Shown here: piece by piece, positions 35,789-40,596 of the stretch | Layout: each line of letters starts with the position of its first letter | Numbering within the stretch: the stretch's first letter is position 1 | Origin: Candidatus Woesearchaeota archaeon | GTDB taxonomy: Archaea; Nanobdellota; Nanobdellia; SCGC-AAA011-G17; GW2011-AR20 | Direction of reading: 5' to 3' | Length of the DNA: 40,596 bases | NCBI GenBank assembly: GCA_018303025.1 | Contig: JAGVYZ010000020.1 | Location: 1 to 40,596 of the forward strand | Translations under genes and position numbers: made by a program | The notes under the pieces: generated by a model | Told to the model about the DNA's origin: nothing | Seen by the model: only the letters and a program-made list of their open reading frames with translations | Databases searched by the model: none

Positions 35789-37108
35789 TTATTTTAAAAT
35801 TCTTTCAACATCTCTCCAGCCAATATCTGTTCTATAATGCAGGTTATTTCCTTCTATTGAAATATATGCAATAGCTGAATAAGCACGCTGCCTTGCTTCT
35901 AAAATATCTTTTCCTTCTGCAACAACACTAAATAATCTTCCTCCATTAGCATAAGTTTTTCCATCTATAATATCAATTCCTGCTCCAAATATATTTATTC
36001 CTTCTAATTGCATTGCTTGTTCAAGTCCATAAATTCTTTTTCCTCTGGCTTGTGAATAATCTTGAGGATAACCGCGAGATGCACCTACTATACAAACCCT
36101 TGTTTTATTATCTTGAGAAATCTTTACTTGATTAAGCCTTTTTTCTAAACAAGCCTGTATAAGGTCTAGGTAATCTGTTTTTAAAGATGGAAGAACAACC
36201 TGGCATTCTGGGTCTCCCCATCTTGCATTGTATTCTATATTCATTAATTTTCCATTAACAACAATTCCGCCTAAATAAAGAATTCCTGTAAAAGGAACTC
36301 CTTCTGAAGCCATACCTAAAATTACTTTTGAAATCATTTGTTTTTCTATTTCATCTTTTAAAGGATTGGTTATTAATGCAGGCGAAATAGCACCCATTCC
36401 GCCTGTTTGCTCTCCTTCATCAAAATTATTAACTGTTTTATTATCCTGAGCTGATTTAAATATTCTATAAGACAATCCATCACTTATTGCATAATATGAA
36501 AATTCTTCTCCTACTAATCCTTCTTCAATTAAAAATCTTCTTCCAGCTCTATCTGGGAATGTTTTCATTAATCTAATATTTTGAATAGCTTGTTCTAATG
36601 TTGTTGATTTAAGTGCACCTTTACCTGCACACAAACCGATTGCTTTTATGTAGAATATTCCTGGATTTTCTTGATAAAGTCTTGTTACATATTCTATTGC
36701 TGAAGCTTCATTATCAAAATATCTAAATTTAGGATGTGGAATTTCTTGTCTTTGCATAAACTGACGAGCCCAATTTTTATCACTTTCAATTCTTGCTGCT
36801 AATTTTGTTGGGCCAAATACCTGAAAACCATTTTGCTGCAATAAATCTACTGTGCCTGATGCAAGTGCATCATCCTGGGCAACATCAATTAAATCAGGCT
36901 TATATTCTTCTGCAATTCTAAGAATAGATATTGGATCTTTTAATGAACTCCTTTTGTCTACAATAACATTCTTTTTCCTCCAGTTTAGAAAGTCATTTCC
37001 AGGAGTAACTATCACTCTTTCTACTTGAGGACTATTTCTATATGCATGAGAGATTACATCTTCTCTTGCTCCATTGCCAACAATCATAACAGAAAGCCCT
37101 CTTACCAT
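35789..37108 (-). CDS. purD: Phosphoribosylamine-glycine ligase-like ATP-grasp enzyme
   Basis: VMIVGNGAREDVISHAYRNS, FGPTKLAARIESDKNWARQFM, RFLIEEGLVGEEFSYYAISDG, NIEYNARWGDPECQVVLP. Confidence 0.88.
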   Translation of the reverse strand: MVRGLSVMIVGNGAREDVISHAYRNSPQVERVIVTPGNDFLNWRKKNVIVDKRSSLKDPISILRIAEEYKPDLIDVAQDDALASGTVDLLQQNGFQVFGPTKLAARIESDKNWARQFMQRQEIPHPKFRYFDNEASAIEYVTRLYQENPGIFYIKAIGLCAGKGALKSTTLEQAIQNIRLMKTFPDRAGRRFLIEEGLVGEEFSYYAISDGLSYRIFKSAQDNKTVNNFDEGEQTGGMGAISPALITNPLKDEIEKQMISKVILGMASEGVPFTGILYLGGIVVNGKLMNIEYNARWGDPECQVVLPSLKTDYLDLIQACLEKRLNQVKISQDNKTRVCIVGASRGYPQDYSQARGKRIYGLEQAMQLEGINIFGAGIDIIDGKTYANGGRLFSVVAEGKDILEARQRAYSAIAYISIEGNNLHYRTDIGWRDVERILK

Positions 37109-37209: not shown

Positions 37210-38694
37210 ATGCTAACCAATGTATTAATTGGAGGAAAAGCTGGACAGGGTCCTAATGTTTTAGCGAACATTATTTCTGAGATTTTAGTTAAAACAGGAT
37301 ACTATGTTTTTCTTTCAAGAGAATATGAATCAGTAATAAGAGGTGGACATAATTATAATATATTAACTTTCTCTGATACTAAAGTTTATAGCAATGAGAA
37401 TAAGATTGATATTTTAATTTGCCTGGATGATAATACTGAATTAGTTCATAAAAGCAAAATAAGAAAAGAGACACTTGTTTTGAGAAATAAAGACAATAAA
37501 GAGAATATTTATTTTGCCGGGAAATTATTAAAGATATTGGGTTTTGATTTTAAATTTTTGGAAATTGAAATTAAAAAATTAAGGAATTTCGATGCTAATT
37601 TGAAAAATGCAAAAGAAGGTTATGAAAGCGAAAATTCTAAATTTAACTTAAAAACTTCTAAGAATAAAACTAATTATTTCATGAATGGCGCTCAGGGTGT
37701 AAAAGAAGGTGCTTTGAAGGGTGGAATGGATGTTTATTTTGCTTATCCAATGACACCAGCTACTTCTCTTTTATCTGAACTAGCTGAGAAACAAGTTGAG
37801 AATAATATTTTAACATTAGAATTGGAAAATGAGATTGCTGTTTTTAATGCTGCTATTGGAAGTGCTATTACTGGTGCTAAATCAATGGTTGGAACTTCTG
37901 GCGGCGGATTTGATTTAATGACAGAAGCTTTAAGTTTAGCTGGTATTGGAGAAATTCCTGTTGTTGCTTATTTAGCTCAAAGACCAGGACCTGCTACTGG
38001 TGTTGCTACTAAAACAGCTCAGGGTGACTTGAATATTGCTTTATATTCTGGGCATGGTGAATTTTCAAGAGTTGTTGTTGCTCCTGGCGACCCAATAGAA
38101 AGTGCTGAATTAACTTCTGCTTTGTTTTATTTATCCCAGAAATTTAAAATTCCCTGTTTGATATTATCTGACAAGCAATTAGCTGAAAGCTTTTACACAT
38201 TAAACGGGAAAGCTAATATTGTGAAATCTGAAAAATTAACTTCTTTGAAAAGATACAATAGCTATGAACATCTTGATTCTGGGGAAGCTACTGAAGATAC
38301 TGCAATTGTTGAAAAAAATGTTGAAAGAAGATTAATGAAGGCTAATGAAATAAAAAGAGAAGTTGAGAAATTAGAAACTTGCAAGGTTTATGGAAAAGGA
38401 AAAACTTTAATTGTTGGATGGGGTTCTACTAAAGGCGCTATTTTTGATGCTATACAAGGATTAGATGCAAGATTTTTACAAGTACTTTATTTAGAACCAT
38501 TTTCTGATAAAATAGTTGCTGAATTAAAAAAAGCTGATAATATAATTGTTGTTGAAAATAATGCAACTGCCCAGTTGGCTAATTTGATTACTGCTAAGAC
38601 TGGAATTTTTATTAAAAATAAAATTTTGAAATACAATGGACTGCCTTTTTACTCTGATGAGCTAAAAGAAGAGATAAAGAAGAGGATGAAATGA
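37210..38694 (+). CDS. 2-oxoacid:ferredoxin oxidoreductase, fused gamma-alpha subunit
   Basis: GGKAGQGPNVLANIISEI...VIRGGHN (gamma); NGAQGVKEGALKGGMDVYFAYPMTPAT...MVGTSGGGFDLMTEALSLAG (alpha). Confidence 0.93.
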   Translation: MLTNVLIGGKAGQGPNVLANIISEILVKTGYYVFLSREYESVIRGGHNYNILTFSDTKVYSNENKIDILICLDDNTELVHKSKIRKETLVLRNKDNKENIYFAGKLLKILGFDFKFLEIEIKKLRNFDANLKNAKEGYESENSKFNLKTSKNKTNYFMNGAQGVKEGALKGGMDVYFAYPMTPATSLLSELAEKQVENNILTLELENEIAVFNAAIGSAITGAKSMVGTSGGGFDLMTEALSLAGIGEIPVVAYLAQRPGPATGVATKTAQGDLNIALYSGHGEFSRVVVAPGDPIESAELTSALFYLSQKFKIPCLILSDKQLAESFYTLNGKANIVKSEKLTSLKRYNSYEHLDSGEATEDTAIVEKNVERRLMKANEIKREVEKLETCKVYGKGKTLIVGWGSTKGAIFDAIQGLDARFLQVLYLEPFSDKIVAELKKADNIIVVENNATAQLANLITAKTGIFIKNKILKYNGLPFYSDELKEEIKKRMK

Positions 38695-38945
38695 TAACTA
38701 AGGAAGACTTTGAGATATTACATTGGGTAGAATTTATGAATTATAATGATCCAAAAAAATTGTCACAACAAATGGGTCTATCAGAAAAAGAAGCTGAAAT
38801 AAAAATGAAAGAGCTTGAAAAAAATGAGTTAATCATAAGAGAATGCCGCTTTGGAAAACTTTATGGTTATAAATTAACAGAAAAAGGGCTAAAAATTTGG
38901 AATGCTAAAAGATATTTAAACTGGAAATTGGGATTAGGATATTAA
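38691..38945 (+). CDS. Small winged-helix protein between oxidoreductase subunits
   Basis: KLSQQMGLSEKEAEIKMKELEKNELIIRECRFGKLYGYKLTEKGLKIW; ATGA overlap with the alpha subunit gene. Confidence 0.75.
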   Translation: MITKEDFEILHWVEFMNYNDPKKLSQQMGLSEKEAEIKMKELEKNELIIRECRFGKLYGYKLTEKGLKIWNAKRYLNWKLGLGY

Positions 38946-38946
38946 A

Positions 38947-39783
38947 ATGGAAAATTTAAATACAATGATTAAACCAACATGGTGTCCTGGATGCTTTAAT
39001 TTTCAAATACTTACTGGGGTAAAAAATGTAGTCTTTAATGAACTCAATTCTGGGAAAAAGAGGGATGAATTTGCAATTGTTTCTGGAATTGGATGTCATG
39101 CAAAGATATTTGATTATCTGAATATAAACGGAATCAATACTTTGCATGGCAGAGTTCTGCCTACTTGCTTTGGAATAAAAATAGGGAATCCTAATCTGAA
39201 AGTCATTGGATTTTCTGGTGATGGTGATGCATATGCAGAAGGAATGGAACATTTAGTTCATATGGCAAGGTATAATGTTGACATGAAATATATTATTCAT
39301 GACAATCAGGTATTTGCTTTAACTACTGGACAATCTACACCTACAACTGAAATTGGATTTAAAGATAAGACTAATCCTTTAGGCGCTAAACTGAATCCAT
39401 TAAATCCAATTAAATTAATGTTATCTTTAAATGTTGGATTTGTAGCTAGGGTATTTGCTGATGTGAAATCTGTTGAAGATGTATTAAAAGAAGCTTTGAA
39501 ATATAAAGGATTTGCATTTATTGAAGTAATACAGCCTTGTCTGATATTTCACCAGGATACTGGTTTTAAAGAAAGGATATATTCTTTGCAGGAAGCTAAG
39601 CATGATAAGACTAATATTACTGAAGCTTTGAAAAAAGCTGAAGAATTTGATTATAATGATTCTAAAAGCAAGATTCCAACTGGAATATTCTACCAGAAAG
39701 AAAGAGAGATTTTTGAAGACAAGTTTGAACAATTAAAGAAATTAAAAGATAAGAAAATGTCCTGGAAGGATATTAAAAGATGA
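38947..39783 (+). CDS. 2-oxoacid:ferredoxin oxidoreductase beta subunit
   Basis: TWCPGCFNFQIL, GIGCHAKIFDYL, LHGRVLPTCFGIKIGNPNLKVIGFSGDGDAYAEGMEHLVHMAR. Confidence 0.95.
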   Translation: MENLNTMIKPTWCPGCFNFQILTGVKNVVFNELNSGKKRDEFAIVSGIGCHAKIFDYLNINGINTLHGRVLPTCFGIKIGNPNLKVIGFSGDGDAYAEGMEHLVHMARYNVDMKYIIHDNQVFALTTGQSTPTTEIGFKDKTNPLGAKLNPLNPIKLMLSLNVGFVARVFADVKSVEDVLKEALKYKGFAFIEVIQPCLIFHQDTGFKERIYSLQEAKHDKTNITEALKKAEEFDYNDSKSKIPTGIFYQKEREIFEDKFEQLKKLKDKKMSWKDIKR

Positions 39784-40596
39784 ATGACAAGAATTTAGAC
39801 TTAAATTCTTTAAAAAATGAAAAATTAATTGCTCTTCTTGCTCCTTCTTTTGCTGTAATGTTTGATTATCCTGAAATAATATTAAAGTTGCGTAAACTTG
39901 GATTTGATAAAGTTGTTGAATTAACTTTTGGCGCTAAACTTGTTAATCATGAATATCATAAGATTCTGAAAAATTCTAAAAAATTATTAATTTCTACTGT
40001 TTGCCCTGGTGTTGTTGAGACTATTAAAAATAAATATCCTAAATTTATTAAAAACTTGATTTCTGTTGATAGTCCAATGGTTGCTACTGCTAAAATATGC
40101 AAAAGAGTTTATCCTAATCATAAAACCTGCTTTATTTCACCTTGCACTTTTAAGAAAATAGAAGCAAGAAATTCTGATTATGTTGATTATGTTATTGATT
40201 ATATGGAACTTGCTAAATTAGTTTCTAATATTTCTGTTAAAGGAAAGGATAATTTTGACATGTTTTACAATGAATATACTAAAGTTTATCCATTATCAGG
40301 AGGGCTATCTAAAACAGCTCATTTGAAAGGAATAATTAAACCTGGGGAAGAGATATGCATTGATGGAATTGTAAACATAATTAAATTTTTAGAAAATCCT
40401 GATCCTAAAGTAAGATTTATGGATGTTACTTTTTGCGTTGGAGGTTGTATTGGCGGACCTTTTGTAAACTCTAATCTGGATATTGAAGGAAGAAAGAAAA
40501 GAATTTTAGATTATACAAAAAAATCTTCTGCTCTTGATATTCCTAAAGAAAGTAAAGGCATTTTAGAAGTTGCAAAAGGAATAAAATTTAAGACGA
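39780..40596 (+). CDS. [FeFe]-hydrogenase large-subunit C-terminal (H-cluster-like) domain protein, partial, runs off right edge
   Basis: Own translation: LLAPSFAVMFDYPEIILKLRKLGFDKVVELTFGAKLV...STVCPGVVETIKNKYP...ISPCTFKKIEARNSDYVDYVIDYMEL...YPLSGGLSKTAHLKG...MDVTFCVGGCIGGPF. Absent from ORF track because it is incomplete. Confidence 0.82.
   Translation, partial: MNDKNLDLNSLKNEKLIALLAPSFAVMFDYPEIILKLRKLGFDKVVELTFGAKLVNHEYHKILKNSKKLLISTVCPGVVETIKNKYPKFIKNLISVDSPMVATAKICKRVYPNHKTCFISPCTFKKIEARNSDYVDYVIDYMELAKLVSNISVKGKDNFDMFYNEYTKVYPLSGGLSKTAHLKGIIKPGEEICIDGIVNIIKFLENPDPKVRFMDVTFCVGGCIGGPFVNSNLDIEGRKKRILDYTKKSSALDIPKESKGILEVAKGIKFKT

Follow-up and report, generated by a model that had tools for sequence, protein, structure and literature searches.

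Greening et al. reportedly described, in Cell in 2024, an ultraminimal [FeFe] hydrogenase from DPANN archaea with a bound H-cluster and H2-producing activity. The H-domain fold and its cubane cysteines are also found in the Nar1/IOP1/CIAO3 proteins, which are eukaryotic, have a role in Fe-S assembly and are not known to need HydEFG; nor is Nar1/IOP1 known to make H2. F-domain relay clusters occur across most groups of [FeFe] hydrogenases, but groups A and E include members that lack them (2026 paper, PMC13104023). Characterised sensors of groups C and D have F-clusters at the N-terminus and a [4Fe-4S] domain at the C-terminus, to which group C adds a PAS domain (PMC13104023), and the group B enzyme CpIII has the motif TSCCCP (PMC12138974). 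The definition of group E used here is taken in part from PMC13104023, and no detailed description of this group was found in the literature searched.

Results

The window, i.e., the whole stretch of 40,596 nucleotides that was analysed, is the complete contig C39 of a genome of 1.06 Mb that is 87.5% complete. At its right end, the ORF calls give four genes on the + strand that overlap or abut each other (Table 1). The preliminary description read these as an operon of 2-oxoacid:ferredoxin oxidoreductase (OFOR) followed by a coupled last ORF, and both Pfam and direct reading of the sequence bear this out, the ATGA overlap at 39780 coupling the H-domain gene to the OFOR beta gene. An assembly error is an unlikely source of this gene order, which recurs in other genomes. 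A PurD-like (GARS) gene (window positions 35789-37108; Pfam GARS_N/A/C) is divergent from the operon, with a gap of about 100 bp, and an archaeal-type RNA polymerase subunit was read by eye in L106.

Table 1. Positions of the OFOR and H-domain genes and of the active-site codons in the window.
Feature	Position	Strand	Evidence
OFOR (2-oxoacid:ferredoxin oxidoreductase) fused gamma-alpha subunit, 494 aa	37210..38694	+	PF01558 + PF01855; TIGR03710; ten other genomes
Winged-helix-like ORF, 84 aa, between OFOR alpha and beta	38691..38945	+	Sub-threshold winged-helix matches; overlaps alpha stop
OFOR beta subunit, 278 aa, TPP domain	38947..39783	+	PF02775 + PF12367; NF008820
Ultraminimal [FeFe]-hydrogenase-like H-domain protein, 272 aa read	39780..40596	+	PF02906; orthologues; AlphaFold model; PDB matches
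V74-C75-P76 codons: proton-relay position lost, first cubane ligand kept	39999..40007	+	CpI C299/C300 alignment
P121-C122-x-x-K125 codons: second cubane ligand and Lys equivalent to CpI K358	40140..40154	+	Alignment to CpI
C219-x-x-x-C223 codons: third and fourth cubane ligands	40434..40448	+	Matches CpI MACxxGC

The gamma-alpha subunit matches POR (E 1.6e-13) and POR_N (E 1.2e-38) in Pfam, while the beta subunit matches TPP_enzyme_C (E 4.6e-28) and PFO_beta_C (E 2.1e-12). Against NCBIfam, the gamma-alpha subunit matches TIGR03710 (OAFO_sf, E 1.4e-127) and the beta subunit NF008820 (E 1.5e-92), both under the curated cut-offs, and for this reason the substrate of the OFOR cannot be named. By their positions, Cys 13, 16, 50 and 198 of the beta subunit are candidate ligands of one [4Fe-4S] cluster. 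The small ORF between the two subunits has sub-threshold winged-helix matches only (HTH_45, E 0.0011; Rio2_N, E 1e-4), with no homologue in the other H-domain loci examined. In those loci the alpha-beta interval holds different insertions or none, among them a membrane protein-like ORF (L008) and an acetyltransferase-like ORF (L009).

The H-domain ORF is open at the contig end. Five orthologues from relatives, 51-60% identical to it, end within a few residues of the cut, and the lengths called here for the 26 other short orthologues lie between 275 and 311 aa. Because the orthologues end where the contig is cut, the protein has no further domain, and it lacks at most a few residues. This answers indirectly the question, raised in the preliminary description, of whether a C-terminal domain lies to the right of the window. 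A larger enzyme truncated by the contig end is ruled out, since the orthologues end at the same point, and so, by the lengths of the orthologues, is a sensor with a C-terminal domain beyond the contig end.

PF02906 (Fe_hyd_lg_C) matches the protein with E 1.6e-38 and 133 bits (cut-off 22.1), over positions 2-245 of 245. The best NCBIfam match is TIGR04105, an [FeFe] hydrogenase model (E 4.5e-35, model positions 220-458), with a score of 121.2 bits where the curated cut-off for this group B model is 450. An AlphaFold model was obtained with pLDDT 86.7 and pTM 0.86, and in the structure search all 50 PDB matches listed are [FeFe] hydrogenases or H-domain subunits, the best of them being 8a6t, 7p8n and CpI (E down to 2.7e-16; TM-score by query length 0.78 to both 8a6t_A and CpI). 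The full-length PF02906 match and the fold search support the earlier reading of a minimal H-domain without N-terminal ferredoxin domains. A Nar1/IOP1-like family, which had been named as an outcome that would overturn this reading, did not come up, as no Nar1 entry was found in the sequence searches or among the structure matches listed. The H-domain protein is among the smallest known hydrogenase-type proteins. The H-domain profile also gives short, weak hits in ORFs that look unrelated (85-257 aa; L101 at G003:C69:257-424, L099 and L100; E 1e-3 to 1e-5), and the protein itself has a weak FolB match (Pfam, E 0.039); these are probably due to chance.

For the active site, 27 short proteins from five families (the window protein and 26 orthologues) were aligned, with the roles of the CpI residues taken from established knowledge and PMC10407848. 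Cys75, 122, 219 and 223 align to the four cubane ligands of the H-cluster in CpI and are invariant in 27/27, so the four cysteines pointed out in the preliminary description are indeed kept; the Val that it saw at the first Cys of TSCCP also stands, as residue 74 aligns to C299 of CpI and is V, P, T or A in all 27, never C. Altogether 45 residues are invariant across these divergent proteins, including A21-P22-S23, P121 and K125. Of these, P22, S23 and K125 are presumed contacts of the di-iron site, to which C223 is the expected bridge. The position of S319 is taken by I, A, M, L or V, that of E279 is, according to the alignment used, either gapped or next to a Tyr that is invariant, and where CpI has M353 and M497 close to the di-iron site, the short forms have other residues, mostly Ser and Phe. 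Neither the TSCCP motif that includes C299 nor the proton path through E279 and S319, the features looked for in a group A enzyme, is present in the short forms. An invariant segment specific to these forms, F-Y-x-x-Y-T-K (Y163, Y166, T167 and K168), might, as a guess, serve as a proton path or a docking surface of their own. Three pairs of orthologues give a dN/dS (NG86) of about 0.05-0.12, so the H-domain gene is constrained and under strong purifying selection.

The short form was found in 28 of the 381 genomes of the class that were sampled, as 27 bare H-domains (272-311 aa) and one divergent protein of 356 aa (genome G122), and the phylum-wide sample added none outside the class. A long canonical HydA, mostly with TSCCP or TTCCP and in some cases cut by contig ends, is present in 23/381. 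The 356-aa protein (L076, G122:C22:55340-56128) has two N-terminal CxxCxxCxxxCP ferredoxin motifs, read by eye, and a divergent H-domain with the motifs STCP, SPCPAK and LFCPGGCIGGPG. It may stand midway between forms with ferredoxin domains and those with a bare H-domain.

Maturases were searched with the models TIGR03955 (HydG), TIGR03956 (HydE) and TIGR03918, which detect Thermotoga maritima and genome G041. HydG over the cut-off was found in 0/28 short-form genomes and 4/23 long-form genomes, and HydE likewise in none of the 28 and in the same four long-form genomes. The short-form genomes are 81-100% complete, and chance loss of the maturases in all of them is negligible. The difference in HydG between the short and the long form is modest (p 0.035), because most genomes with a long canonical HydA also lack maturases: 19/23 (e.g., L077-L098), several of them 93-100% complete, are without HydG or HydE over the cut-off. 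Of the seven genomes tested for HydF, G041 alone has a match of nearly full length, and in the six short-form genomes among those tested the matches cover the GTPase domain only. The preliminary description had counted a genome and community without maturases, together with a protein that binds no H-cluster, among the findings that would speak against it, and for the genome the first part did come true for HydE and HydG, with HydF matched in its GTPase domain only. However, as 19/23 canonical HydA genomes share the absence, we dropped it as proof that no H-cluster is bound, and we regard it as a class-wide puzzle.

OFOR alpha and beta adjoin the short-form gene in 11/28 loci (the window and ten other genomes) and are not adjacent to it in 17/28, where LSM-like, RNase Z-like, TFIIB-like and transporter-like ORFs were read by eye nearby. 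OFOR-beta is present in 26/28 short-form genomes, the two without a match being G122, the most divergent, and G129, while it is present in 2/32 genomes of the same order without the short form (Fisher p 2e-12, partly confounded and inflated by shared ancestry). When restricted to the order, the counts are 6/6 and 2/32 (p 1e-5). The coupling to OFOR that had been proposed from the gene order thus holds statistically. Copies from another family of the class (f23) share up to 70% identity with the OFOR-beta of the window, but that of G003, which belongs to its own family, shares 45%, and the H-domain protein does not group with its G003 counterpart either. Simple vertical inheritance of the window copy is thus unsupported, and since both genes look closer to the other family than to G003, this suggests that the H-domain and OFOR genes moved together. 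In relatives, ORFs like acyl-CoA synthetase (ADP-forming type) or like AMP-forming acetyl-CoA synthetase adjoin the operon, as read by eye. The window genome also has an 80-aa single-cluster ferredoxin-like ORF (L107 1387-1629, G000:C36), a candidate carrier from OFOR to the H-domain protein.

Discussion

On balance, we consider it probable that the protein is a group-E-like ultraminimal [FeFe] hydrogenase which passes the electrons of OFOR to protons as H2, with a di-iron site that would probably come from a host or from a non-homologous maturation. OFOR would oxidise a 2-oxoacid to acyl-CoA and CO2, and electrons would pass from the [4Fe-4S] cluster of the beta subunit to the cubane of the H-domain, either directly or via a small ferredoxin, so that a bare H-domain without relay clusters could discharge the electrons of the neighbouring OFOR. 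At the predicted di-iron site protons would be reduced to H2. This step would probably be slow, as the usual proton path (C299, E279 and S319) is missing, and the acyl-CoA may yield ATP via an acyl-CoA synthetase, as the neighbours in some relatives suggest. In group D enzymes, an alternative proton path can exist (PMC10407848). We infer the bound di-iron site, the direction of catalysis, the route of the electrons and the source of the di-iron precursor. Several observations count against the hydrogenase reading: none of the 28 short-form genomes has HydE or HydG over the cut-off, and in the six tested for it HydF is matched in its GTPase domain only; the canonical proton path is absent and the M353 and M497 equivalents are replaced; and in 17/28 loci OFOR is not adjacent, with G122 and G129 having no OFOR-beta match.

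In the main alternative, the H-domain has been repurposed and holds the [4Fe-4S] cubane only, serving OFOR as a dedicated electron carrier, a redox switch or a partner in assembly, in a way comparable with Nar1/IOP1. The lack of HydE and HydG (0/28), the invariance of the four cubane Cys in spite of a lost proton path and lost Met353 and Met497 equivalents, and the invariant segment particular to the short form all point that way. Nevertheless, the absence of maturases is not specific to the short form, because it is shared by 19/23 canonical HydA genomes, most of which have an intact TSCCP or TTCCP; invariance extends to P22, S23 and K125, which presumably contact the di-iron site, and to the bridging C223; the best NCBIfam match is the hydrogenase model TIGR04105; and an ultraminimal DPANN enzyme is said to be active. 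We hold this alternative to be rather unlikely.

A sensory role, in which the protein would respond to redox state or H2 and regulate OFOR in the manner of the HydS proteins of groups C and D, with the winged-helix-like ORF as a possible output, is improbable. The C299 position is lost as in these groups, where it is mostly Ala (PMC10407848), and the winged-helix-like ORF does lie within the operon; but that ORF has no match in other loci, PAS, phosphatase and additional FeS domains are missing from all 27 short proteins of the alignment, and the characterised sensors have FeS domains at both the N- and the C-terminus (PMC13104023). Of the two options offered in the preliminary description, the fermentative H2 outlet fares better, and the redox sensor is weakened by the lack of a signalling domain in the 27 short proteins. 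That the gene is a decaying, functionless remnant of an [FeFe] hydrogenase would agree with the loss of F-domains, proton path and maturases, but is very improbable and largely refuted by constraint (dN/dS about 0.05-0.12, NG86, three pairs), by the 45 invariant residues in 27 divergent proteins and by the correlation of its presence with OFOR.

It is also quite possible, though we would stop just short of calling it probable, that a class-wide archaeal lineage keeps H-domain proteins without HydE and HydG, whether by an unknown maturation, by import of the finished H-cluster from host cells, or as dedicated cubane-only electron partners of OFOR.

Among the known systems, the archaeal OFORs (TIGR03710 / NF041170 / NF041171) are likewise built from a fused gamma-alpha and a beta subunit, and their domains match, although the subunits of the window score under the curated cut-offs of these models. 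The H-domain fold and the cubane Cys of Nar1/IOP1/CIAO3 are also present in the window protein. On the tested features, the short form is not of group A, B, C or D. The monomeric group B enzymes (TIGR04105) give the best NCBIfam match, but the window protein is without their N-terminal half. With the sensory enzymes of groups C and D (TmHydS, TamHydS) it shares a non-Cys residue at the proton-relay position and the missing canonical proton path (PMC10407848), whereas their F-clusters, C-terminal [4Fe-4S] domain and PAS domain are absent from it and from the 26 orthologues.

By its architecture, the window protein seems to fit the ultraminimal group E. The orthologues are one-domain proteins of 275-311 aa, each a bare H-domain without an F-domain as in that group, in what we infer, from genome size and from archaeal genes such as the RNA polymerase subunit in L106, to be DPANN genomes. 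Shared with the DPANN enzymes of group E are the bare H-domain without F-domain relay, the small DPANN-type genome and the single short polypeptide, while the association with OFOR and the absence of HydE and HydG were measured here on short forms. The bare H-domain kind is already reported, and the maturation gap is the interesting part, as the absence of HydE and HydG in 28/28 carriers sharpens the question of who builds the H-cluster; it would be truly surprising if the archaea depended on a host for the cofactor, or if a second pathway of maturation existed. If active, such a protein would show how little protein H2 catalysis needs. Fermentation in small symbiotic archaea would then have a simple sink for its electrons, and these archaea would supply H2 to their partners.
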